Of a stretch of 64,000 bases of DNA, positions 47,749 to 60,004 are shown piece by piece. A model generated the notes under the pieces. The model had not been told where the DNA came from, did no database searches, and worked only from the letters and a program-made list of their open reading frames with translations. Made by a program: the position numbers and the translations under genes. Positions within the stretch are counted from its first letter, which is position 1. Every line of letters begins with the position of its first letter. Source of the stretch: an uncultured Tateyamaria sp. (GTDB lineage: Bacteria; Pseudomonadota; Alphaproteobacteria; Rhodobacterales; Rhodobacteraceae); the NCBI RefSeq assembly GCF_947488715.1, contig NZ_CANLAG010000002.1, positions 1 to 64,000 of the forward strand, written 5' to 3'.

Positions 47749-48818
47749 GCCGGTGTTCCTTCTTCGGGCAGGGGGTCCGCGGGGGCAGGGACAGGCACGG
47801 GATCGACATAGGTGCCGGGCGGGTTCGCGTCGGGGTGGACTTCGACCATGTCTTCGACAATGCGCAAACGGTATGTCGGCACCATTTCGGTGAAGGGCGC
47901 AGGCGACCGACCCGACCGTACATCATACTGAAACCCGTGCCAGGGGCAGGTGACCAGACAGTCGATGATCTTGCCCTCGCCCAGCGGCCCGTTCTGGTGC
48001 GCGCAGGCGTTCGAGATGGCGCTCAGTTGCCCCTCCATCAGGTACACGGCGACACGTTCGCCATTGGCCAGCTTTGCGATCTTGGCAAATCCTTCGCGGA
48101 AATCGCCGACCCGCGCCACTTCGGCCCAGGCACCGTCCTTGGCCGCGGCCTCCGACCGTTCCGACAGCCACGCAGCCACATGCAGCACGATCACCGCCGC
48201 CGCACCTGCCATGAACAGCAGTGTGAACAGGTGGTTCTGCTGATCCTGCAGGATGCCCAGACTGATATGCGCGGCCACTGAAAAATAGGCTGCATAAATC
48301 AGATAGTGCAGCCGCTTCCACACCGGTGGGGTCAGGAACTTGAGCCAGAAATCGTGGCTGGTCGCCGCAAGGATCAGCAAGCAGACCAGTGCAAAAATGC
48401 CAAAGAGTTCAAAGGGGAAACCGGCAATCTGGCCAAAGCTCGAATTGGCATAGAGCAGGCCCACATATTTGTCAGAGCTGGAAAAATTGAAGTACCAGTT
48501 CAGGATATAGCCCGCATGGGTGATCGCCACAAAGGCGGTCATCACCCCAAAATGCCGACGGTTGTAAAGCAGCGGCAAGAACCGCCGGTCCAGCCGCGCG
48601 GCGGGGCCGATGCACAGGATCACGGTCAGCATCATGAACGCACAGGCCCCAAAGGCGCGCGCATTGTGGATCTGCGGGTTGATCGCGCGTTCGTGGTTCA
48701 GCACGTCGGGCGTCACATAGAGAAACACCCACAAGAACGCGGCAACGCCTGCAAGCATCACGGCGTCATAGATCCACTTGTTCCGGTTCCACTGGACGGG
48801 CGTGTATTTGACGCTCAT
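47745..48818 (-). CDS. Ferric-reductase-like membrane domain fused to a Rieske [2Fe-2S] domain
   Basis: This 357-residue protein has about six membrane helices with His residues placed as heme ligands (HAGYILNWYF, RLHYLIYAAYFSVAAHISLG), as in the FRD/MsrQ family. A soluble domain at about residues 240-330 carries CAHQNGPLGEG and CPWHGFQYDVRSG, the CxH and CxxH pairs of a Rieske cluster. Normally such membrane hemes receive electrons from a flavin domain; here a Rieske centre takes that place. It lies between two coupled genes (4-base overlaps). Electron donor and acceptor are unknown. Confidence 0.8.
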   Translation of the reverse strand: MSVKYTPVQWNRNKWIYDAVMLAGVAAFLWVFLYVTPDVLNHERAINPQIHNARAFGACAFMMLTVILCIGPAARLDRRFLPLLYNRRHFGVMTAFVAITHAGYILNWYFNFSSSDKYVGLLYANSSFGQIAGFPFELFGIFALVCLLILAATSHDFWLKFLTPPVWKRLHYLIYAAYFSVAAHISLGILQDQQNHLFTLLFMAGAAAVIVLHVAAWLSERSEAAAKDGAWAEVARVGDFREGFAKIAKLANGERVAVYLMEGQLSAISNACAHQNGPLGEGKIIDCLVTCPWHGFQYDVRSGRSPAPFTEMVPTYRLRIVEDMVEVHPDANPPGTYVDPVPVPAPADPLPEEGTPA

Positions 48819-49186
48819 TGCGTGACCCCTTCACTGAGTTGCACAGGCGCCACGTCACCGGGCCAGGTCTGGCGGATGCTGAGGCCGGAGAACACGATCA
48901 CGACGATGCCGAGGCTCATCAGGCACACAGCCGCGCCGTAGTAGGCGCGCACCGGGCGGTAACGTGCGGCCCAGGCGGCGCGTTCTGTCTCGATCTGCCA
49001 CCAGCGCCACAGCACAATCGGCCAGATCAGCAGTACCGCCGGGATCAGCAGGGGGCGGAATACGTAGGCACCGCGCGCGTCTTCGTCGATGCGGTCAATG
49101 CCAATCGTCAGGAAAATCAGGGCCACGATGGCGCCGATGATCCCCCATGTCTGCATCCCCATCACCAGGGCCTGTGCAACGTCCAT
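48815..49186 (-). CDS. Membrane protein, first gene of the redox operon
   Basis: This 123-residue protein has three hydrophobic helices (WGIIGAIVALIFLTIGIDRI, VFRPLLIPAVLLIWPIVLWR and YGAAVCLMSLGIVVIVFSGL) and little soluble sequence. It heads the operon and overlaps the Rieske fusion gene by 4 bases, which suggests a subunit of the same membrane complex. The family is not recognised. Confidence 0.65.
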   Translation of the reverse strand: MDVAQALVMGMQTWGIIGAIVALIFLTIGIDRIDEDARGAYVFRPLLIPAVLLIWPIVLWRWWQIETERAAWAARYRPVRAYYGAAVCLMSLGIVVIVFSGLSIRQTWPGDVAPVQLSEGVTQ

Positions 49187-49432
49187 GTTGAACCTTTCAT
49201 GCGTCGTCGTCGTTCCAAGTTGCTGGACCCTAACAAGCCCAGAGGCCCGGACCCAAGGGCAAATTGTTCAATTCGCTCGCTTGGGCAAAATTGTGATCTG
49301 CCATTGGGCAGGTTGATCAAAAAATGCGGCCTGCGGGTCTGTGGGGGAAATTGGACTGTTATGTCGCTCCGGTTTGGGGCTATCACTTTGGCCATCTTCT
49401 GCGACACTGACGCAAGAACAGGGAGAACCAAG

Positions 49433-50398
49433 ATGAAGAAACTCGCATTTGCCGCCACCCTTATGATGGGCACCAGCGCGGCGTCCATCGCTGCCGCCGA
49501 CTGTGGCGCGGTGTCGATCACCGAAATGGATTGGGCCTCGGCCGCCGTGGTCACCAACGTCGCCAAGTTCCTGCTGGAACAGGGCTATGGCTGTAACGTG
49601 ACTGTGGTGCCAACCACCACCGTGCCCGCCATGGCGTCGGTGGCCGAAACCGGCGAACCCGACATCCTGACCGAGCTGTGGACCAGCTATACCGAGGTCT
49701 ACGAAGAGCTGCGCGACGAGGGCAAACTGGTTGAAATGTCCAAGGTGCTGTCCGATGGCGGTGTCGAAGCATGGTGGATCCCCGACTACCTCGCGGCGGC
49801 CCATCCCGAGCTGAAAACGCTGGACGGCATCAAGGCCAACCCCGAACTGGTCGGTGGCCGGTTCCACGACTGCCCGTCGGGCTGGGGCTGTGACATCACC
49901 AACCACAACAACTTCAAGGCCGCAGGTCTGGCCGATGCCGGCGTCGAACGCTTCCAGCACGGCTCGGGCGAGACACTGGCTACTGCCATCGCCGCCGCCT
50001 ACGAGGCCAAAGAACCATGGTTCGGCTACTACTGGGCCCCCACATCCGTTCTGGGCAAATACCCGATGGTGCAGGTGGAAATGCCCGCCTATGACGCCGA
50101 CAAGCACACCTGCAACGGTCTTGAGGACTGCGGCACACCCGCTCTGTCGTCCTATCCGGTGTCCAACGTGGTGACCGCTGCGACGCAGACCTTTGTTGAC
50201 CGCGAACCTGATGCGGCGGCGCTGATGCAGAACCTGACCTTTACCAACGCCCAGATGGGCGAGGTGCTGGCCTGGCAGGAAGCCAATGAGGCCTCGAACG
50301 AAGAGGCGGCTGTCTACTTCCTGACCACCTACAACGATGTGTGGGGTGCGTGGCTGAACGACGACGCGCGCGGCAAGCTGGCGGCGCTGCTCAAGTAA
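49433..50398 (+). CDS. Glycine betaine-type ABC transporter substrate-binding protein
   Basis: This 321-residue periplasmic protein has a Sec signal (LAFAATLMMGTSAASIAAAD) and the OpuAC/ProX fold: ITEMDWASAAVVTNVAKFLL, then ILTELWTSYTEVYEELRDEG, and WFGYYWAPTSVLGKYPMVQV, where clustered aromatic residues form the quaternary-ammonium cage. It is the first gene of a three-gene importer. Betaine, choline or a related compound is expected. The ATG at 49433 follows AGGGAGA. Confidence 0.88.
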   Translation: MKKLAFAATLMMGTSAASIAAADCGAVSITEMDWASAAVVTNVAKFLLEQGYGCNVTVVPTTTVPAMASVAETGEPDILTELWTSYTEVYEELRDEGKLVEMSKVLSDGGVEAWWIPDYLAAAHPELKTLDGIKANPELVGGRFHDCPSGWGCDITNHNNFKAAGLADAGVERFQHGSGETLATAIAAAYEAKEPWFGYYWAPTSVLGKYPMVQVEMPAYDADKHTCNGLEDCGTPALSSYPVSNVVTAATQTFVDREPDAAALMQNLTFTNAQMGEVLAWQEANEASNEEAAVYFLTTYNDVWGAWLNDDARGKLAALLK

Positions 50399-50407
50399 AA
50401 CGACCTT

Positions 50408-50435
50408 CCGCGCCGGGGCAGGGGCCTTGGCGCGG
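50408..50435 (+). terminator. Intercistronic hairpin after the betaine-binding protein gene
   Basis: CCGCGCC (50408-50414) and GGCGCGG (50429-50435) form a 7-bp stem with a 14-base loop and no T run. It probably protects the binding-protein message from 3' decay or lowers expression of the permease, which would give the usual excess of binding protein. Confidence 0.6.
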
Positions 50436-50478
50436 ATCGCCTCTTTAGGCACCACATCCAACACATCCGGGGACGACA

Positions 50479-51513
50479 ATGGCACAGTATGACGGCCTTT
50501 TTGACGGTTTGGGCCTGCGCGACTGGTGCGACGCGGACAAGCAAGACGCGCCCATGTCCATGGCGCAATTGCTGGCCCAGAGTGGCGCGAGCGACAGCAC
50601 CGAAGAGGGCGGCGGTCTGCCGTTCCCGTCGCTTGACGCGCTGCACGAAAGCTGCGCCGCCGTGCCCCAGACCCGCGACCTGACCGCTGGCATCGAGGCG
50701 GGTTTTCTCGCCATCCGCGCCGAGCTGAAATTTGTCCTCGACCCGATCACGCAACCGCTGAGCTGGATGTTGGACGGGGCGCTTTGGGTGTTCGAAAGCG
50801 CGCCGTGGTGGGTCATGATCCCGGCGTTGCTTGCGTTGACCTATTGGGTCAGCCGCTCGCGGCCCGTGACGGGTTTCGTGGCACTGGTGCTGTTGTTCTT
50901 TGGTCTGATCGACCACTACGAAGTTGCGATGCAGACGCTGGCAATCGTGTTCGTCTGCACCGGTCTCTCGGTTGTTCTGGGGGTGCCCATTGGCATCGGG
51001 ATGTCGAAATCCGACACCGCACAGCGCACCATTGTACCAATCCTTGACCTGCTTCAGACCTTGCCGACATTTGTCTACCTGATCCCGCTGATCTTCCTGT
51101 TTTCCGTCACGGAATCAAAGCTTTATGGCATCGCCATCATCCTCTACGCCATCGTACCGGTGATCCGCCTGACTGATCTGGGCATCCGCCTTGTGGACAA
51201 GGACGTGATCGAGGCGGCAAACGCCTTTGGCCTAACCGCGTGGCAGAAACTGGCGCGGGTCGAGTTGCCGCTGGCGCTGCCCAACATCATGGCGGGCGTG
51301 AACCAGACCATCATGATGAGCCTCGCCATGGTCGTGATCGCCTCTCTGGTGTCTGCACCGGGGTTGGGCGTGCTGGTCCTGCGCGGCATCCGCAATCTGG
51401 AACTGGGCGTGGGCATTGTCGCGGGCCTCGGTATTGTGCTGCTCGCCGTGATCCTCGACCGGGTGTCCAAGGCCGCACTGGCCCGTGTCGACACGCAACG
51501 CAAGGACGCCTGA
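50479..51513 (+). CDS. Glycine betaine-type ABC transporter permease
   Basis: This 344-residue protein is of the ProW/OpuAB type, with an N-terminal hydrophilic extension of about 95 residues and then five to six membrane spans (LALTYWVSRSRPVTGFVALV onward). The coupling loop AANAFGLTAWQKLARVELPL and IMMSLAMVVIASLVSAPGLG are characteristic of the family. The start is 80 bases after the binding-protein gene; the ATPase gene follows one base after its stop. Confidence 0.9.
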   Translation: MAQYDGLFDGLGLRDWCDADKQDAPMSMAQLLAQSGASDSTEEGGGLPFPSLDALHESCAAVPQTRDLTAGIEAGFLAIRAELKFVLDPITQPLSWMLDGALWVFESAPWWVMIPALLALTYWVSRSRPVTGFVALVLLFFGLIDHYEVAMQTLAIVFVCTGLSVVLGVPIGIGMSKSDTAQRTIVPILDLLQTLPTFVYLIPLIFLFSVTESKLYGIAIILYAIVPVIRLTDLGIRLVDKDVIEAANAFGLTAWQKLARVELPLALPNIMAGVNQTIMMSLAMVVIASLVSAPGLGVLVLRGIRNLELGVGIVAGLGIVLLAVILDRVSKAALARVDTQRKDA

Positions 51514-51514
51514 C

Positions 51515-52555
51515 ATGACAGCCAAAGTATCCATTCGCGGACTCTACAAGATCTTTGGGCCGAATGACGCGGCGATGGTGGACCACGTCCGGGGCGGCAT
51601 GGACAAACCCACGCTGCTTGAGCGTCACAGCCACGTGCTGGGTCTGCAGGACATCAATGTCGACATGCAGCCGGGCGAAATCACCGTGATCATGGGCCTG
51701 TCCGGGTCCGGCAAATCGACGCTGATCCGCCACCTCAACCGCCTGATCGAACCCTCGGCGGGCGAGATCTTGGTCGACGGCGGCGACGTGATGAAGCTGG
51801 GCCAAAGCGCCCTGCGCGACCTGCGGCAAAAGAAGATGTCGATGGTGTTCCAGAAATTCGCGTTGCTGCCACACAAATCGGTGCTGGAAAACGCGCAACT
51901 GCCGCTCAGCGTGCAGGGGGCGGATGCGGCGACCTGTGACGCGGAGGGTCGCAAATGGTTGGCCCGCGTTGGCCTCGAAGGGTTCGAGGATCGCTATCCC
52001 GCACAACTGTCCGGGGGCATGCAGCAACGGGTGGGCATCGCCCGCGCGCTGACCGCAAACACCGACATCATGCTGATGGATGAGGCGTTCTCGGCCCTTG
52101 ATCCGCTGATCCGCACGGACATGCAGAACCTCTTGCTGGAGCTGCAAAAAGAGCTGTCCAAGACCATCATCTTTATCACGCATGACCTGGACGAAGCGTT
52201 GAAACTTGCCGACCACTTGGTGATCCTCAAGGATGGCGCGGTGGTGCAACAGGGCGAGCCGCAGGGCATCCTGCTCAACCCGTCCGATCCTTACATCGAA
52301 GACTTTGTCAGTGACATCAACCGCGCGCGGGTGCTTCGGGTGCGGTCGGTCATGCAGCCGCTGACCGGCACGAGCTTTGCCAACGATGTTAGCCCGTCCA
52401 GCACGCTTGAAGATCTGATTGCGCAATCTGGCGGGGACACCGAACAGGTCTACCGCGTCGTCGAAAATGGCACGGCGGTGGGGCAGTTGGAAATGACCGA
52501 TCTGGTCAAGGCATTGGTGCCGCGCGTGTCCGAAGGGCGCACCGCCGCACGCTAG
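51515..52555 (+). CDS. Glycine betaine-type ABC transporter ATP-binding protein
   Basis: This 346-residue ATPase has Walker A GLSGSGKST, the Q-loop in MVFQKFALLPHKSV, signature LSGGMQQRVGIARA, Walker B IMLMDEAFSALDPLI and the H-loop in IFITHDLDEA. A C-terminal region (VRSVMQPLTG, VGQLEMTDLVKALVPR) resembles one CBS module, the osmotic-sensing part of OpuA/ProV-type transporters. It ends the operon before a terminator. Confidence 0.92.
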   Translation: MTAKVSIRGLYKIFGPNDAAMVDHVRGGMDKPTLLERHSHVLGLQDINVDMQPGEITVIMGLSGSGKSTLIRHLNRLIEPSAGEILVDGGDVMKLGQSALRDLRQKKMSMVFQKFALLPHKSVLENAQLPLSVQGADAATCDAEGRKWLARVGLEGFEDRYPAQLSGGMQQRVGIARALTANTDIMLMDEAFSALDPLIRTDMQNLLLELQKELSKTIIFITHDLDEALKLADHLVILKDGAVVQQGEPQGILLNPSDPYIEDFVSDINRARVLRVRSVMQPLTGTSFANDVSPSSTLEDLIAQSGGDTEQVYRVVENGTAVGQLEMTDLVKALVPRVSEGRTAAR

Positions 52556-52887: not shown

Positions 52888-53043
52888 ATGTCCGACGATC
52901 CCGATAAGGTTTGGCCAACTGGTCTCAACCTTCACGAAGCCGAAGAGGTGCACAGCTATCTGATTGATGGCACGCGCGTCTTTGGTGCCATTGCCCTGAT
53001 CGCACACATGCTGGTCGCGGCGTCCACGCCCTGGCTCGGCTAA
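52888..53043 (+). CDS. pucB: Light-harvesting 2 beta polypeptide
   Basis: This 51-residue membrane peptide binds bacteriochlorophyll and carotenoid in the peripheral antenna ring. It has the conserved HEAEEVHSYLIDGTRVFGAI with the His and Arg contacts of the B800 region, and the membrane helix with its axial His in ALIAHMLVAASTPWLG. The closing TPWLG is typical of beta chains. It follows a TGGAGGAA ribosome site and is 12 bases ahead of pucA. Confidence 0.95.
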   Translation: MSDDPDKVWPTGLNLHEAEEVHSYLIDGTRVFGAIALIAHMLVAASTPWLG

Positions 53044-53055
53044 AGGAGGAACACC

Positions 53056-53403
53056 ATGAACAACGCAAAAATGTGGCTTGTTGTGCCACCAGCGGTTGGC
53101 GTTCCCGTCTTTCTCGGCGCCGTCGCCGTTGGATCGTTCGCGGTCCACGTCGCTGTCCTGAGCAATACATCCTGGGTTGCTGACTTCCTGTCCGGTGTTG
53201 AGCTGGGAACAGGGGATGCACAGGCTGCAGCCGAAATGCTCAAGCAGGACAATGTCGCCAAGGCGTCATATGTGCTGCCGCATGCAGACGGCGGCCAGCA
53301 GGTGCTTGTGATCATGCCGGATGGCACGACGCAATCGGCTGTGTTGCAGCCATCGACGACCGTTCACGCCAGTGCGGTGCTGCCGCGCGTAGTCGAACAG
53401 TGA
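53056..53403 (+). CDS. pucA: Light-harvesting 2 alpha polypeptide, C-terminally extended, Phe44-Leu45 type
   Basis: This 115-residue protein begins with a complete alpha chain: MNNAKMWLVVPPAVGVPVFL, then the axial His31 in SFAVHVAVLSNTSW. It aligns without gaps to the Rhodobacter sphaeroides alpha chain over the first 46 residues as I recall that sequence. At positions 44 and 45, where Tyr/Trp-Tyr residues hydrogen-bond B850 pigments, it has Phe and Leu. That pair is known from B800-820 antennae. About 60 extra residues follow (AEMLKQDNVAKASYVLPHAD, STTVHASAVLPRVVEQ); normal alpha chains end near 55. The extension would lie on the periplasmic side. Confidence 0.92.
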   Translation: MNNAKMWLVVPPAVGVPVFLGAVAVGSFAVHVAVLSNTSWVADFLSGVELGTGDAQAAAEMLKQDNVAKASYVLPHADGGQQVLVIMPDGTTQSAVLQPSTTVHASAVLPRVVEQ

Positions 53404-53498: not shown

Positions 53499-54956
53499 AT
53501 GTTTGACTATCGCACATTTGCCTTGCGCAAACTGGTCTCGATAGCGCCGCGCTACCTGCCTTTTGCGGATGTGGCGACCGACGATGTGCCGCTGTCGCGC
53601 CTGCTGCGCCTGTCTCTGTTTCAGATCACTGTGGGTATGGCTGTTGTGCTGCTGGTCGGCACGCTGAACCGCGTGATGATCGTTGAGCTGAACGTGCCGG
53701 CCAGCCTCGTGGCGCTGATGCTGGCACTGCCGCTGCTGTTTGCGCCCCTGCGCATGCTGGTGGGCTACAAATCCGACACCCATGTCTCTGCCCTCGGCCT
53801 GCGCCGTGTGCCCTATATCTGGAAAGGCACGCTGTATCAGTTCGGCGGCTTTGCGATCATGCCCTTTGCGCTGTTGGTGCTGTCGGGCTACGGCGAGGCG
53901 GTCGATGCCCCGCGCTGGATGGGCCTGTCTTCGGCGGCTCTCGCCTTCCTTCTGGTTGGGGCGGGTGTGCATATGGTGCAGACCGTGGGCCTTGCGCTTG
54001 CCACCGACCTTGTGCGCGAAGAGGATCAACCCAAGGTCGTGGGCCTGATGTATGTCATGTTGCTGGTCGGGATGGTGGTCAGTGCGCTCGTCTTTGGAGC
54101 GCTCTTGGCCGATTACACGCCCGGCCGCCTGATACAGGTGATCCAGGGCGCGGCGGTTGTCACCGTGACGCTGAACCTGGCTGCTCTCTGGAAACAAGAG
54201 GCCCGCAGCCGCGCACGCGCACAACAGATGCAGATCACACCCCGTGTACCGTTCGAAACCGCCTGCCGCGCCTTTGTGCGGCAACCGGGCAAGATGCGCC
54301 TGCTGGCAGTGATTGCGCTGGGCACCTTCGGGTTCGGGGCTGCCGACGTGTTGCTGGAACCCTACGGGGGACAGGCGCTTGGCTTTACCGTGGCCGAAAC
54401 GACGAAACTGACGGCCCTGCTGGCCGGAGGGACGCTCATCGGCTTTGGCATAGCATCGCGCGTTTTGGGCAAGGGCGGTCAACCGGCGCGGCTAGGCCTG
54501 ATTGGTGCGCTGATCGGTATTCCGGGCTTTGCGGGGATCATCCTGTCTTCGATGGGGGGCGGTGCGCTGATGTTCCTGCTGGGCACCATCGCAACCGGTC
54601 TGGGGGCGGGGCTCTTTGGTCACGCGACACTGACGGCGACCATCCGGTCTGCGGCATCCGACCAAATCGGACTGGCGCTTGGCACATGGGGCGCGGTTCA
54701 GGCGACCTCTGCAGGCATCGGCGTGGCGCTGGCCGGGGTGGTGCGTGACATCATCGTCGCCCTGCCGGACCAAGGCGCAATGCCCGCGCATGTGCCCTAC
54801 AATGCAGTTTTCCTCATCGAAATGGTTTTCCTCGCGCTTGCGTGCGCTATCCTTGTCCCACTGGTGCGCAAAAACCGTCGGGGCCATGTCCCGATACCTG
54901 ACACAACACAGCGGCCCGCGACGGGCCTGCCAAACAATCCGGCGGAGGCATCATGA
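53499..54956 (+). CDS. pucC: PucC-family light-harvesting assembly protein
   Basis: This 485-residue protein of the bacteriochlorophyll-delivery (BCD) branch of the major facilitator superfamily has about 12 membrane helices. It opens with the family-typical cytoplasmic segment (LPFADVATDDVPLSRLLRLS) and contains ALGLRRVPYIWKGTLYQFGG. PucC is needed for LH2 assembly, probably by handing pigment to the alpha and beta chains. The ATG follows GGGGGAG. Its stop overlaps the start of the repeat-protein gene by 4 bases (ATGA), so the two are translationally coupled. Confidence 0.93.
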   Translation: MFDYRTFALRKLVSIAPRYLPFADVATDDVPLSRLLRLSLFQITVGMAVVLLVGTLNRVMIVELNVPASLVALMLALPLLFAPLRMLVGYKSDTHVSALGLRRVPYIWKGTLYQFGGFAIMPFALLVLSGYGEAVDAPRWMGLSSAALAFLLVGAGVHMVQTVGLALATDLVREEDQPKVVGLMYVMLLVGMVVSALVFGALLADYTPGRLIQVIQGAAVVTVTLNLAALWKQEARSRARAQQMQITPRVPFETACRAFVRQPGKMRLLAVIALGTFGFGAADVLLEPYGGQALGFTVAETTKLTALLAGGTLIGFGIASRVLGKGGQPARLGLIGALIGIPGFAGIILSSMGGGALMFLLGTIATGLGAGLFGHATLTATIRSAASDQIGLALGTWGAVQATSAGIGVALAGVVRDIIVALPDQGAMPAHVPYNAVFLIEMVFLALACAILVPLVRKNRRGHVPIPDTTQRPATGLPNNPAEAS

Positions 54957-55999
54957 CCCAAGTCATCACGCGATATTTCGAGAACGCGTCACAGGCTTTT
55001 GTCGTCAAGCGATCTCTTGAAATCGAACGCTTTCCACGCAGCGACCTTGAGGTGCTGACCGACGCGGACACGGCAGGTGACGCGCTGACCGCGGCACAGG
55101 TTGATCCGGCCACCGTCAGTGCCTATGCCAAAAAGCTGGCAGACGGCGGTGCCGTTCTGGTGGCGCGCGCCACCTACAAACCGCTTGGGGCTGCACAGCT
55201 GACCCGCGACATGACCGCTCAGATGGGCGCCGCCGACATGGGCGATCTGGTCGAAGAGGTGTCGGTCAAAACCGCACCGGGCCGCAGCCTGTCCGTCTTC
55301 AGCGATCATCCCCACTACCTGACCCGCCGTCTGGGACAGATGGGGGACACGGTGCACATGGCCGATTGGCCGATTCCCCTGATCAGCCGTCGCAAGCCCG
55401 TTGATGCCTTTGCCTTCCCGCGTCACGCGCGGATGGCGGACTTCCCGATGGGTCTGATCAGCCGCCGCAAACCAAAGGACAAATTCGCCTTTCCCCGCCA
55501 TGCCCGCATGGCGCGCTTCCCGATCCCGCTGCTGAGCAAGCGCAAACCCTGGGATGCCTTTGCCTTTCCACGTCACGCCCGGATGGCAAATTTCCCGATC
55601 TCGCTGATCAGCCGTCGCAAGCCGTTTACCGGCACCGTGATTGGCCGCCACACCCGCATGGCCAACTGGCCCTTTCCGCATCTCATCAACGGCAAACCCG
55701 GCACCAACGCGCTGGTCCCCAACGGCGCACGCATGGCGAACTTTCCGATTTCGCTCATCAGTCGTCGCACCCCAAAGGACAAGTTTGCCTTTCCCCGTCA
55801 CGCGCGGATGGCCAACTTTCCAATTGGTCTGACCAGTCGGCGCAAGCCATTCACCGGCTCGATGATCTCGCGGCACGGCCGCATGGCCGATCTGTTCCTG
55901 CCGCTGGTCATCAAACACGGCGCGGCCAAACAAGCCGAGCAAGGGCAGGGCTTTTCGCTGTCTCGTCTCTTGGGCATGCCCACGATCCTACGGCGCTGA
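54953..55999 (+). CDS. Undescribed 25-residue-repeat protein of the puc operon
   Basis: This 348-residue protein has two parts. Residues 1-135 look like a compact domain reminiscent of general-stress (YflT-type) modules (VITRYFENASQAFVVKRSLE, SAYAKKLADGGAVLVARATY). Residues 136-310 are seven exact-length 25-residue repeats, consensus M-A-N/D-F/W-P-I-x-L-I-S-R-R-K-P-x-D-x-F-A-F-P-R-H-A-R, with an eighth begun at 311. The repeats are strongly basic, with a conserved His, Trp/Phe-Pro and FAFP. There is no signal peptide or clear membrane helix. Its ATG overlaps the pucC stop. A role in LH2 pigment loading, assembly or complex stabilisation, like PucDE elsewhere, is inference; it does not resemble those proteins. 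Confidence 0.8.
   Translation: MTQVITRYFENASQAFVVKRSLEIERFPRSDLEVLTDADTAGDALTAAQVDPATVSAYAKKLADGGAVLVARATYKPLGAAQLTRDMTAQMGAADMGDLVEEVSVKTAPGRSLSVFSDHPHYLTRRLGQMGDTVHMADWPIPLISRRKPVDAFAFPRHARMADFPMGLISRRKPKDKFAFPRHARMARFPIPLLSKRKPWDAFAFPRHARMANFPISLISRRKPFTGTVIGRHTRMANWPFPHLINGKPGTNALVPNGARMANFPISLISRRTPKDKFAFPRHARMANFPIGLTSRRKPFTGSMISRHGRMADLFLPLVIKHGAAKQAEQGQGFSLSRLLGMPTILRR
55358..55882 (+). repeat. Seven tandem 75-base repeats encoding the 25-residue units
   Basis: The repeat units begin at 55358, 55433, 55508, 55583, 55658, 55733 and 55808, each opening with ATG-GC and ending in the codons for H-A-R or a variant. Units 1, 2, 3 and 6 carry the FAFPRHAR ending, units 4 and 7 share an FTG-type ending, and unit 5 is the most divergent. 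The pattern points to growth by duplication followed by specialisation. Confidence 0.9.
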
Positions 56000-56125: not shown

Positions 56126-59100
56126 CTAGGCCATCTGTTTCAGACGCTCATCCAGATCATGGATGTCCGTATAGAGTTGCGTGATTTCGCGGGCAAAGCT
56201 GATGTCGCGCACACGTCCCAAACTTTCTCGCGCCTCGTCGAGCTTGTTCACCATTTCGGTTTGGTGGTCGTCGACGTTCCTGGGCTTTTCCACCAGACAA
56301 GACACGTATTTGCACTTGGCCCGCAAGTATTGCGCCACGCCCAGTGACGGCAGGAAATCCAACTGACCGGCAAGCAGCTCTGCCCGTTCCAAATGCGCGC
56401 ACACTTTGTCCAGTATGGGCTTCAGAGTGCGCCGCGCTGTACCGGCTTCCCCCAGCACCTGAATTTTCTCAAGCGTCTGCGCAATCAGGATCTGCAACAC
56501 CTCCAGCTCAATCGCATGGCTCGCATTACCCTGACGGCACAATTCCAGCGCCTCTTCGGCATAGGACAACGCGCTGTCTTTCCAGCGCGCGGCCTGATCG
56601 GCATCCGTGTGCTTGGTCACTCGGCTGTAGGTGTACATCGACCGGTCGATAAACGCGCAAACCTGATCGGCACCGCCATAGTGCCGCAACCGGGCAATGT
56701 TGATATCAATCAGGCTGCAAATTGCGCTGTCCACCGCGTCGCGCAGCGCGGGATTGTCCTCGGGGACGGCATAGTCTTGCGACCGGATGAGGAACCGGAT
56801 GTAGCGTCGCGCAGTGCGCCCGCTGAAAATGACGGACGTCTTGCTCGAGGCGGGTTTTGCGATCGCTTCTTCGGCGGCGACAAGGCACGAATAGATCTCG
56901 TGGGCCTTGGCAATCTCGGGCCTGCTGCGATCAAATCCCTGATCCGTAGCCAGCAAGGACAGCACTTCGGCCTCTCTGGCCTTCAGGCGCATCCACGCCT
57001 TGCACCGACGGAACCCCGCAAGGCTGAGCGCGGCCAGCGCCTTCGGGTCGCCCGCCACCGCCTCATAGTCATCGTAGTGCGCCTCCAGCCACGACCGCAG
57101 CATAGCCAGCGTGCCATAGTGTGTCTGGTCAACCGTCTCATCGCAAAAGGTCCCGGCGGCCCGGATGCCACCAGTTTGAATACGGCTGTCGAGGATCGAG
57201 CAATAGATGCGTACGCCGCGGCCCAACAGCTTGCGACGCAAAGGCAGCGCATCTGGATCATCCGCAGGTGCATAGTGATCCAGCAGCAGCTCAAACTGTC
57301 CGCGCGCCCAGTCGATGATCGCAGGGCGCTGGCTGTGATAGCTGGCCAGCGCAATGGTTGTGAGCAATTCAATGATCTCGGTCGGGGTGAAACTCGCGCG
57401 GATTTGGTCCGGGATCTTGTCAGCAGGCAGGGTGCTGACCACATCCCAAATCTCATCCACCGACCCGCCATAGCGCCGCCCCAGCGGCAACCACGTCAGC
57501 AAATAAAGGCGCAGCCGGATCAGGTCAAAATCATAGAGCATGGACAGCTCGTGATCGTGATCAATCTCGCGGCGCAGAATTTGCAGCAACGCATATCGCA
57601 GCGCCGTCTGTGGCTGGAACACCTGCGTGTTGGTCGAAAAGACGATGTCTTCGGAAATGCTCAGCAACCGGGGCAGTTTCGGGGACAGACCCGTGCCTTG
57701 CACCAGATCGGCAATCGGCGCGTCCGCCGCAAAATCAGGCTGCCCGTCAAATGCCTGCGGCGGGATGCTGGCCAGCAGTGCTTCGTGGCACTGCATGTCG
57801 CGGCGCATCAGCCGGATGTTGCGGGGTTCGGCGATTGTGCTGGTGTGCAGGCGCCGGGTGCGCGCCCGCCAACGTACAAAATTCGCCAACTGCCTGCGCG
57901 CATCGCGCAACAAATCCGCGTGGACCGTCAGACGGTGCGGATCTTCCCCGCCCCTTTCGGCCCGGTACATGGCGTCGGTGATCCGGGACGCAATCGCGAT
58001 GTCGACTTCCCAAACGCGGTCATCGGCCTTGTGCTCTTCGCCGATGTCGTATTCGCGCGGGTCATAATTCGTGCACGGCTCGTACTTCACGAAAAACCGG
58101 ATGGCGAGGTCCTTGAGCGCTTCAAAGGTCGCGATGCGTGTGTCCCACGTGGGTGCATCCTTTGCGTAGTTCTCGCGCGACCACTGGTCGAAAATACGTT
58201 CCAATGACGCGCGGCGCACACCATCATCGGACGCGGCCACCACAAAGAACATGCCAAGGACCTTGCGCGCTTTCAATTCGTTCAACAGGATCGAAATCAG
58301 CTCGTCCTCGGCCCCTTCGGTCTTCTCCTCTCGGATCAACGCACAGAAACGCCCCAGCGCCTCAACGACCAACGTTTGCACCTCCGGGCGGTTGGCGCAG
58401 AGCTGATATGTCGCCGCAGCCAACAACAGGATGTCGCCGGGAATCTTCTTGGCCATGTTGTCTCGGAACACGCTCTTCCAAGGTTCCTTGGTACGGTCGA
58501 CGGTCCGCTCGTCCTCGAAATAGCGGAGGATTTCTTTGAAATCCGGATGCTCCATGCTCTCGATGAAGAACCGAGGCATGTTTCGGGGGATCTTCACCTT
58601 AGCGACGTCGGGCAAGGCCGACAGAACAACCCGCGACAAGGGGTTGGACTTGATCAGCAGCTCGATCAAATTCGCCCTTGGGGCATCCCGCAGCACGATC
58701 CGGTTCTGGTCAGGGGCAAAGTCCTGCCAGTCTGTGAAGATGAACACAGCCGGGTGGCCGCGGGTGCCTTCGGCATCATGTGCATGCAGGTCGCGGATTT
58801 CGTTCAGGATGTCAGAGACGTTGTCCAACGCAACCCGTTGTGGAAAATCCGCCTGAGCCTGATCCAGATGCGCGGCCGCTGACATGGACGGGTCTGCAAG
58901 ACGGCGCAGGAACGCCAGTGTCCGCATCAGCAAATCCCGATAGGAAAACCGCTGCGCGTTCAGCATGAGGACAGGCAACCGCTCAATGTGTCCGTCATCG
59001 TTCAGGTTCAGACGGGCCGTGCCGTTGAATTTCGGATCCAGCCGCCGCAGAAAGCTGACCAGAACCGCCGTTTTGCCAGCGTGCGGTGGGCCAGTCAGAA

Positions 59101-59902
59101 TGGCGATGCGCTTCGGTCTTACCATGTCGGACAGTTTGCCAAACAGGGTCTCCGCGCCCAGTTTGGTGATGTCGCGGGAATTGGGCAGGTTGGTGACCGC
59201 GTCTTCGGACAGGTATTGCACAATGCCTTCGGGCAGGTCGTTCAGATCCTCCAGAACAGGCTCCGGCGGCGGCAATTGCAAAGGCTGCACCGCGCGCGAT
59301 GTGCCCTCCGGTGCTGTGTAAGAACCGGCGAGACCGAGCTGCGCGACAAGATGATAGTAAGCGGTTTCGGTATCGACCTGCGCAGCCGGGTCGGTCAGCG
59401 CGGCCTGTATCTTGTTTACCACGTCGGTCACTGGCTGCCTGGCAAGTGGCGCGTTGGGCCGGACCAGACGCGCTGCGGTGGCCTTGATCAGGTTTTGCAC
59501 GCCAGTCTGCACACTTGCCTGATCGTAGTTGGCGGGTTTCGAACTGGTGACCTCGCTCAGGATTGCGGCGGCGAATTCCTGCAAATCCGTGTTGCGTTTA
59601 CCACCAAGAAAGCACCTGGCGAACTCAACAGGCTTGAGCACCTTGTCGGACGTATGGCGCCACAGCAACATGATGGCCCACATCATGTTTCGCTGGCCAA
59701 AGTGGGTATTGTGGTGCGCGCGGGTTTCTGTTTCGAACGGCCAGTCGTTGTGCCATGGCTCGGTGCAGAGCTCGTCCATGTCTCGCTGCGCAGTGTGAAG
59801 GGTTTCGAGCGCGATGGCCGCGTCTGATGCGTTGAACCACCGCTCGTGATTTGCGGGGCGCCCTCTTCTTCGGGCCGATTCAGGGTGTTGTTGGTCCGTC
59901 AC
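56126..59902 (-). CDS. Very large P-loop NTPase with helical C-terminal region, function unknown
   Basis: This 1258-residue protein starts at a GTG (59902) behind a perfect GAGGAGG; a longer frame to 59983 lacks that support. An N-terminal region opens with RRRGRPANHERWFNASDAAI. A P-loop domain at about residues 255-470 has Walker A GPPHAGKT (271-278), a Walker-B-like AVFIFTDWQDF (385-395) and a sensor-like RVVLSALPDV (424-433). The remaining 750 residues are mostly helical, with segments resembling TPR-like or alpha-solenoid repeats. The layout is that of STAND or conflict-type NTPases, which sense something through the C-terminal arm, but no effector domain was recognised at the N terminus. 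No partner gene lies on its strand. Confidence 0.7.
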   Translation of the reverse strand: MTDQQHPESARRRGRPANHERWFNASDAAIALETLHTAQRDMDELCTEPWHNDWPFETETRAHHNTHFGQRNMMWAIMLLWRHTSDKVLKPVEFARCFLGGKRNTDLQEFAAAILSEVTSSKPANYDQASVQTGVQNLIKATAARLVRPNAPLARQPVTDVVNKIQAALTDPAAQVDTETAYYHLVAQLGLAGSYTAPEGTSRAVQPLQLPPPEPVLEDLNDLPEGIVQYLSEDAVTNLPNSRDITKLGAETLFGKLSDMVRPKRIAILTGPPHAGKTAVLVSFLRRLDPKFNGTARLNLNDDGHIERLPVLMLNAQRFSYRDLLMRTLAFLRRLADPSMSAAAHLDQAQADFPQRVALDNVSDILNEIRDLHAHDAEGTRGHPAVFIFTDWQDFAPDQNRIVLRDAPRANLIELLIKSNPLSRVVLSALPDVAKVKIPRNMPRFFIESMEHPDFKEILRYFEDERTVDRTKEPWKSVFRDNMAKKIPGDILLLAAATYQLCANRPEVQTLVVEALGRFCALIREEKTEGAEDELISILLNELKARKVLGMFFVVAASDDGVRRASLERIFDQWSRENYAKDAPTWDTRIATFEALKDLAIRFFVKYEPCTNYDPREYDIGEEHKADDRVWEVDIAIASRITDAMYRAERGGEDPHRLTVHADLLRDARRQLANFVRWRARTRRLHTSTIAEPRNIRLMRRDMQCHEALLASIPPQAFDGQPDFAADAPIADLVQGTGLSPKLPRLLSISEDIVFSTNTQVFQPQTALRYALLQILRREIDHDHELSMLYDFDLIRLRLYLLTWLPLGRRYGGSVDEIWDVVSTLPADKIPDQIRASFTPTEIIELLTTIALASYHSQRPAIIDWARGQFELLLDHYAPADDPDALPLRRKLLGRGVRIYCSILDSRIQTGGIRAAGTFCDETVDQTHYGTLAMLRSWLEAHYDDYEAVAGDPKALAALSLAGFRRCKAWMRLKAREAEVLSLLATDQGFDRSRPEIAKAHEIYSCLVAAEEAIAKPASSKTSVIFSGRTARRYIRFLIRSQDYAVPEDNPALRDAVDSAICSLIDINIARLRHYGGADQVCAFIDRSMYTYSRVTKHTDADQAARWKDSALSYAEEALELCRQGNASHAIELEVLQILIAQTLEKIQVLGEAGTARRTLKPILDKVCAHLERAELLAGQLDFLPSLGVAQYLRAKCKYVSCLVEKPRNVDDHQTEMVNKLDEARESLGRVRDISFAREITQLYTDIHDLDERLKQMA

Positions 59903-60004
59903 TGCGCCTCCTCGTCCCGATTCTCTGTGGATCGGTTGGGAGCCGTTATACAGACGCGAAAGATTCGCAGGAATTAATTTCACTTTTATGACGGTTTTCT
60001 AGGT

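Follow-up and report, generated by a model that had tools for sequence, protein, structure and literature searches.

What is the role of the repeat protein whose gene closes the puc operon, the operon for light-harvesting complex 2 (LH2), in an uncultured Tateyamaria sp.? We analysed a window of 64,000 nucleotides (nt) (the whole stretch of DNA, from NZ_CANLAG010000002.1, to which all coordinates refer), in which a gene for a protein of 348 amino acids (aa) was recognised at 54953..55999 on the + strand as an open reading frame (ORF) with homologues. Comparison of sequences leads us to favour, with slightly better than even confidence, the reading that this protein is a gamma-type accessory subunit of LH2 that has a head domain and whose arm, longer than that of gamma and basic, would lie on the cytoplasmic rim of the ring. 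The direct support comprises the position in the operon, an occurrence restricted to LH2 genomes, a repeat of fixed period and number, purifying selection, and homology to a wider puc-linked family that resembles gamma.

The gene order is pucB-pucA-pucC-repeat gene. The ATG of the repeat gene (54953) shares 4 nt (ATGA) with the TGA stop of pucC, and a ribosome-binding-like site, GGAGG, was found in the sequence 4 nt upstream of this ATG (54944..54948, + strand). The pucC gene itself (53499..54956, + strand) was identified by Pfam PUCC (7.7e-143), and its product clusters with the LH2-type rows of the PucC search. Since the next long ORF on the 3' side lies on the opposite strand, the repeat gene ends the puc operon. 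The repeat gene is under purifying selection: comparison with four relatives gave a ratio of nonsynonymous to synonymous substitution rates (dN/dS) of ~0.06-0.29 for the whole gene, the N-terminal domain or the repeats, with dS near saturation for some of the relatives.

The protein was divided into a compact N-terminal domain and a repetitive arm. Residues 1-110 (54953..55282, + strand) are predicted by AlphaFold2 (AF2) to form a compact alpha/beta fold (block predicted local distance difference test (pLDDT) 70-93), which may be ferredoxin-like by the order of its elements; Foldseek gave no confirmation, as the AF2 model had no match in the PDB at E <= 0.001. Seven 25-residue repeats occupy residues 133-307 (55349..55873, + strand), as established by lag analysis, by a matching 75-nt repeat in the DNA itself and by the alignment of relatives. 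Within residues 133-331, 84 of 174 residues are identical at lag 25, compared with a maximum of 27 at any lag of 5-59 in 2000 shuffles. The alignment with relatives adds a partial eighth anchor, HGRMADLFLPLVIK..., at residues 308-332 (55874..55948, + strand), so that there are eight anchors, that is, seven exact 25-residue periods and a partial eighth. Repeat 5 (residues 233-257, within 55349..55873, + strand; HTRMANWPFPHLINGKPGTNALVPN) stands out in the alignment as an odd but conserved unit. A histidine occupies position 1 of units 2, 3, 4, 5, 7 and 8, but not of units 1 and 6. The arm is strongly basic, with 38 R/K versus 8 D/E in residues 133-331 and a net charge of +30. Past residue 110 the AF2 block pLDDT falls to 28-41 and the arm has no confident structure; an unstructured arm in a single-chain model is compatible with an extended ribbon, although it is no proof of one.

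These results bear on a previous annotation made from the letters of the window (the sequence-only reading), which had described the gene as the last of the puc operon, starting within the pucC stop, and both points were confirmed. It had also described seven repeats of exactly 25 residues, each with conserved motifs. The exact period was retained, but the anchors number eight, repeat 5 differs, and the motifs are exact in only some of the seven repeats (ISRRKP in 3/7, FAFP in 4/7 and RHAR in 4/7).

The distribution of the gene was assessed with a profile of the family, which matched 48 of 394 genomes of the window's taxonomic family. A homologue was present in 48 of the 56 genomes with an LH2-type PucC and in none of the 338 others. 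The LH2-type rows of the PucC search were those with 59-100% identity (54 genomes), to which G126, with a stop in pucC, and G296, with an LH2-type fragment, were added; the border to the lower rows, which are about 48-55% identical among the matches listed and presumably LhaA-type, was drawn after the gap had been seen. In 47 of the 48 carriers pucC is immediately followed by a copy in the same orientation (in G296 as overlapping fragments), and in the 48th, G022, the contig end cuts pucC. All arm-bearing relatives whose surroundings or genome were examined have pucBA or an LH2-type PucC; for the cut locus L020 only the stretch itself was read, and it contains no puc gene. The assignment of the gene to LH2 biology by the sequence-only reading is borne out by these counts, and common homologues in non-phototrophs without puc genes, which it regarded as counter-evidence, did not appear among the 338 same-family genomes.

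A scan of genome contigs yielded 20 loci, and 18 aligned relatives were 54-79% identical to the window protein. The relatives fall into architectural classes, of which class i, the window's own, is a long form with 25-residue units. All 26 class i relatives retain eight units in register (split around the odd fifth unit), with the conserved core M-A-x-[F/W]-P-I-P-L-[I/L]-S-R-R-K-P; an individual anchor may be degenerate, as in unit 2 of L018, and the spacing is 25 except for one spacing of 26 in each of L014, L016 and L086. Over units 1-4, 6 and 7 of these 26 proteins, His stands at position 1 in 102 of 156 cases, Met at position 4 in 151, Ala at position 5 in 151 and Pro at position 17 in 152. 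Class ii proteins (193-233 aa if complete) share the N-domain and have few, degenerate units such as MSRxFWPMPLLSxKPRR, in which the repeat His is not conserved. Class iii proteins combine the N-domain with mostly 15-residue units, GHKFMAKFPFGHIVP, of which L051 has 13 and L052 has 14, one degenerate unit included. Thus the repeat number, constant within the 25-residue class, differs in other classes. L019:4161-5162, from a Marivita assembly, is a natural hybrid in which 25-residue units are followed by 15-residue units, and in G235 a long and a short form stand in tandem after pucC. The unit counts leave out L060 and L054 (broken or N-containing) and L020 (cut), and L019, L051 and L052 were counted separately from class i. 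The locus L054 (G126:C3) resembles LH2 gene decay: pucC has a stop, the repeat gene is split between frames and the array is shortened.

More distant relatives (class iv) carry the N-domain followed by 15-16-residue units like SSFGLPLLSKN and lie beside pucBA. Profile A2 matched 25 of 385 genomes of the taxonomic class at E <= 0.01, the window's own included; among the 24 others, 19 were read (G667, G759, G405, G653, G664 (weak, no locus) were left out), and five of the 19 loci (L133, L134, L135, L138 and L142) have an arm by puc genes. The other 14 are N-domain-like and lack an arm, and the stretches read around them contain no puc gene. Profile A3, made of five class iv and three class ii rows, matched 25 of the 385 genomes, ten of them besides the window's own at E <= 1e-29; these ten represent eight families (f16 three times, f28, f39, f65, f91, f96, f99 and f123), and all ten loci adjoin pucBA. 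The weaker A3 loci (L168-L181 and L183-L185) were N-domain-like or chance matches without arm or puc gene in the stretch read, as were L191, L192, L205 and L206. In a search of the phylum, the pure class iv profile A4 matched eight of 398 genomes at E <= 1e-6, six of them alphaproteobacteria. Its newly read matches in G1104 (f182) and G966 lie after pucC; those in G822 and G1091 have neither arm nor puc. Counting f182, nine alphaproteobacterial families beyond the window's are represented.

Three comparisons link class iv to the window protein. By hhalign, class i aligned with pure class iv at 97.8% (E 1e-12, 142 columns, chiefly the N-domain) and with A3, whose rows include three of class ii, at 99.8%. 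A position-specific scoring matrix (PSSM) of class iv units only found its best place in the window protein at the C-terminus, and the same was true of each of the 26 class i proteins; in the window this is a unit of class iv-array type, SLSRLLGMPTILR, at residues 335-347 (55955..55993, + strand). None of 300 shuffles was as good for the window and 24 of the 26 class i proteins (nine for L083 and one for L086), and no such C-terminal match over shuffles was seen for class iii. The N-domains of the window protein and a class iv relative were also alike in element order in AF2 models (alignments of 19 and 10 rows), both arms being without confident structure. Judged by these alignments and models, the window protein is homologous to class iv.

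The nearest described counterpart of such an arm is the gamma chain of Rps. palustris LH2, which the portion of PMC9618040 (PNAS 2022) available to us describes as an extended ribbon around six alpha/beta pairs, near the cytoplasmic side, with six approximate units, in each of which a Ser ligands one of six extra bacteriochlorophylls (BChls). The same portion treats gamma as a pigment-binding subunit of the finished LH2, found by BLASTp in Rhodopseudomonas only. The sequence-only reading, which knew of no described LH2 assembly factor with this layout, needs correction here: this chain is a described LH2 protein with such a layout of repeats, and according to that portion it is a subunit binding pigment and not an assembly factor. 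The idea of the same reading that each unit might serve one LH subunit or one pigment, or bind along the membrane surface of the ring, gained plausibility by analogy, since gamma, as described there, works in this way and the distant relatives of the window protein resemble it.

We compared the gamma chain 7zcu_S (97 aa; related PDB entries 7zdi, 7ze3 and 7ze8) with the arms. In 17 f16 genomes it matched two places up to E 0.1, and the better of these (E 0.0065, 29% over 87 residues) falls on the class iv array that G638 carries in its puc operon. The second place (L194, E 0.085) matches no profile and has no puc gene. Against class iv arrays, gamma had a mean Smith-Waterman score of 45.9, compared with 25.1 (standard deviation 3.8) for 500 gamma versions with permuted unit columns, none of which scored as high. 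For single class iv proteins, the number of controls per 1000 as high as gamma was 0 for L156, 6 for L186, 13 for L154, 30-51 for L190, L188, L153, L187 and L189, and 169-177 for L155 and L152. Among 4221 ORFs, the top three were class iv (scores 85, 56 and 55). Gamma and the arm proteins are alike in being LH2-associated and in having tandem short units without regular secondary structure, as observed for gamma and predicted for the arm, and class iv relatives match gamma in register with a period of 15-16 residues. A further likeness comes from G363, an LH2 genome with a short classical PucA and no match to the family profile. It contains, beside pucBA and on the strand opposite to pucBAC, a headless ORF (L124:6207-6647; 147 aa between stops; 2.5e-8 with profile A4) of class iv units, e.g. 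TPFSDILGFPCLSE and TPLSSRMGWSLLGG, which has no N-domain, just as gamma is headless, and which is a possible bridge to gamma. Gamma is nearly neutral (10 K/R and 12 D/E in the 91 residues used), in contrast to the window arm. Collectively, these comparisons make it probable, without proving it, that gamma is related to class iv, and that the window protein is tied to gamma through class iv intermediates only. If the likeness arose instead by convergence on a similar ribbon, the functional reading would stay intact.

Several results weigh against the gamma-type reading. Direct comparison of the other classes with gamma was not significant for class i units (62 of 500 controls as high; first 15 of 26 proteins), and 32 of 500 controls were as high for class ii (first 15 of 32 proteins) and 434 of 500 for class iii. 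Even within class iv, more than 3% of the 1000 gamma controls were as high for six of the ten proteins, and the fourth of the 4221 ORFs, which is unrelated, scored 53. By hhalign, gamma aligned with class iv at only 5% (A3, P 0.0077) or 15% (A4, P 0.0018); the class iv PSSM gave gamma a negative score, and the pure class iv profile had no match in the window's genome at E 1e-6. In architecture, gamma lacks the N-domain that the window protein has, and its units are of 16 residues instead of 25 (15 in class iii and about 15-16 in class iv). When the Pro-Leu cores are aligned by eye, the ligand Ser of gamma, before Gly, is replaced by Phe/Trp in the window protein, and class i has no counterpart of this Ser. 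The 13-14 units of class iii exceed the need of a nine-membered ring. Finally, seven of the 56 LH2-PucC genomes (G252, G386, G339, G111, G365, G091 and G051) had no homologue by four profiles in the stretch read around pucBAC, and LH2 therefore does not need the protein in general.

How might a protein of this kind act? On the gamma-type reading, the repeat protein would be made together with PucC, and its folded N-domain, for which no signal peptide was seen by eye, would stay cytoplasmic. The arm, without a stable fold alone, would follow the outer cytoplasmic rim of the alpha/beta ring as an extended ribbon. In each unit a short hydrophobic segment (M-A-x-F/W-P-I-P-L-I-S) would serve as the one anchor that rests on the ring, and a basic loop (R-R-K-P...R-H-A-R) would dip into the lipid head groups, so that successive units would register with successive alpha/beta pairs. 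The ribbon would in this way make the ring more stable, and each of its units may contribute one monomeric BChl at about the B800 level. We infer the membrane side, the extended conformation on LH2 and the ratio of one unit per alpha/beta pair. The swap between 25- and 15-residue units in L019 suggests that every unit makes one contact and that a basic loop of ten residues is optional. Pigment ligation by the arm is possible by analogy with gamma, and possible ligands are the repeat His (position 1, in six window units), Asn/Asp 6 or Ser 13.

Less likely, though a serious competitor, is that the protein is a transient assembly factor, whose N-domain docks on PucC while the arm templates alpha/beta addition or hands over BChl, and which then leaves the ring. 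The link with pucC speaks for this: in the window's family the gene follows pucC and not pucA, and of the 23 long-form loci adjoining pucC (22 and the window, with the hybrid L019 included), 19 have the 4-nt overlap, the other four being L018 (-13), L086 (+3), L088 (+35) and L063 (+75). The N-domain, moreover, is common to classes with differing arms. The coupling to pucC emphasised by the sequence-only reading is nevertheless common rather than universal, since long forms can leave pucC, as seven have done (L012, L014, L016, L017, L087, L051 and L052). In class iv, the gene keeps company with the structural genes instead. Eight of the ten strong A3 loci run in the same direction as the puc genes and before pucC, lying between pucA and pucC, except that in L154 and L188 the gene has a pucBA pair on either side. 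The other two stand beside pucBA on the other strand and do not form one transcript with it there, L152:4989-5573 being opposite to the adjacent pucBA and divergent from pucBAC, and L153:5785-6369 following pucA in convergent orientation on a short contig that has no LH2 pucC. The gamma precedent, too, belongs to the finished complex in the available part of PMC9618040.

We regard as improbable that the protein is a membrane organiser, in which basic repeats would bind anionic lipid and tie LH2 rings together or LH2 to the complex of reaction centre and light-harvesting complex 1 (RC-LH1). Such a role would suit the strongly basic arm, and the 13-14 units of class iii exceed one LH2 ring in loci that lie away from puc. 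All seven genomes with an unlinked long form have an LH2-type PucC (67-77% identity), and six of them (G1130, G1132, G1133, G185, G001 and G378) keep a short form after pucC, which suggests divided labour; in G1131 (L014) no short form was seen after pucC. The fixed unit number and the conserved odd fifth unit of class i point, however, to a defined target and not to general lipid. By eye, the two class iii genes (L051:6001-7050 and L052:6001-7095) stand alone among genes unrelated to photosynthesis, with uvrB-like and trpB-like genes near L051.

That the protein is a YflT-type general stress protein placed by pucC through chance is very improbable, given that, although the N-domain is weakly YflT-like and has relatives away from puc genes, the non-puc N-domain proteins read have no arm and, apart from the cut locus L020, every arm-bearing relative examined comes with pucBA or an LH2-type PucC. 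The likeness to YflT (PF11181) was found at E <= 0.1 in eight of 49 relatives (6/39 and 2/10; best 0.0013), with a score shown of 17.0, below the Pfam cut-off of 26.2, and the YflT hidden Markov model had no match in the window protein. The YflT-like proteins read differ in having neither an arm nor puc neighbours. The N-domain is probably a distant relative of the YflT heat-induced stress domain, as judged by these profile matches.

Other known systems offered little further likeness. The window protein had no usable match in Pfam, NCBIfam or PDB sequences, and a phmmer search against the PDB found none up to E 10. PucE of R. capsulatus is the 14-kDa gamma chain of LH2. The genes pucD and pucE come after pucC in pucBACDE, according to the part of PMC9231093 available to us, and can be likened to the repeat gene by operon position only. 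Blastochloris viridis LH1 also has an extra antenna subunit called gamma, which the accessible text of PMC10212510 calls distinct in structure and function from palustris LH2 gamma. Two proteins, one from class i and one from class ii, had no match by tblastn in a plasmid collection, and no paper on the repeat gene was found in the open-licence PubMed Central (PMC) literature, subscription journals and preprints being outside its scope.

If the gamma-type reading holds, the repeat protein is a variant of a subunit already known, which we think somewhat probable, and differs from that subunit by its head domain and its basic arm of 25-residue units. The gamma-type ribbon, reported in the consulted part of PMC9618040 as confined to Rhodopseudomonas, would instead be a widespread LH2 component, with a spread of 48 of 394 sampled same-family genomes and nine further alphaproteobacterial families. 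It could then be relevant to the unusual LH2 spectra seen in aerobic phototrophs, and an arm whose units are genetically encoded and can be counted would be a handle on ring size and pigment number. As a doubtful extension, LH2 gamma ribbons might be one branch of an old alphaproteobacterial family of LH2 subunits that were originally headed. The eight anchors and the C-terminal unit of the window protein would then be nine contacts closing around a nonameric LH2 and carrying a full third BChl ring, their fixed count serving as a ring-size ruler; elsewhere the arm would have been shortened or re-pitched (15, 16 or 25 residues), or the head lost.

The two antenna genes of the window lie upstream of pucC. 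The LH2 beta subunit is encoded by pucB (52888..53043, + strand; Pfam LHC 1.8e-9 on the enclosing ORF), whose start at MSDDPDKVWP was picked by eye. The LH2 alpha subunit is encoded by pucA (53056..53403, + strand; 115 aa; Pfam LHC 4.2e-11 over residues 3-41) and has a long C-terminal extension. With starts set by rule, PucA has 93-123 aa in same-family loci with the repeat gene (exceptions L075, 51; L130, 61; L058, 87) and 52-73 aa in those eight LH2 genomes that the family profile did not match. Class iv operons mostly have a short PucA, and the extension is thus not required for the arm protein. By the standard LH topology the extension sits at the periplasmic end, so direct contact with the arm protein is not expected. 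Facing the puc operon, a minus-strand ORF of 1285 aa (56126-59983) has weak AAA-type matches only (AAA_22 E 0.0003, 21.5 bits, cut-off 27), and the ORFs upstream of puc (48818-52555) resemble, by eye, the binding protein, permease and ATPase of a glycine betaine/proline ABC transporter.

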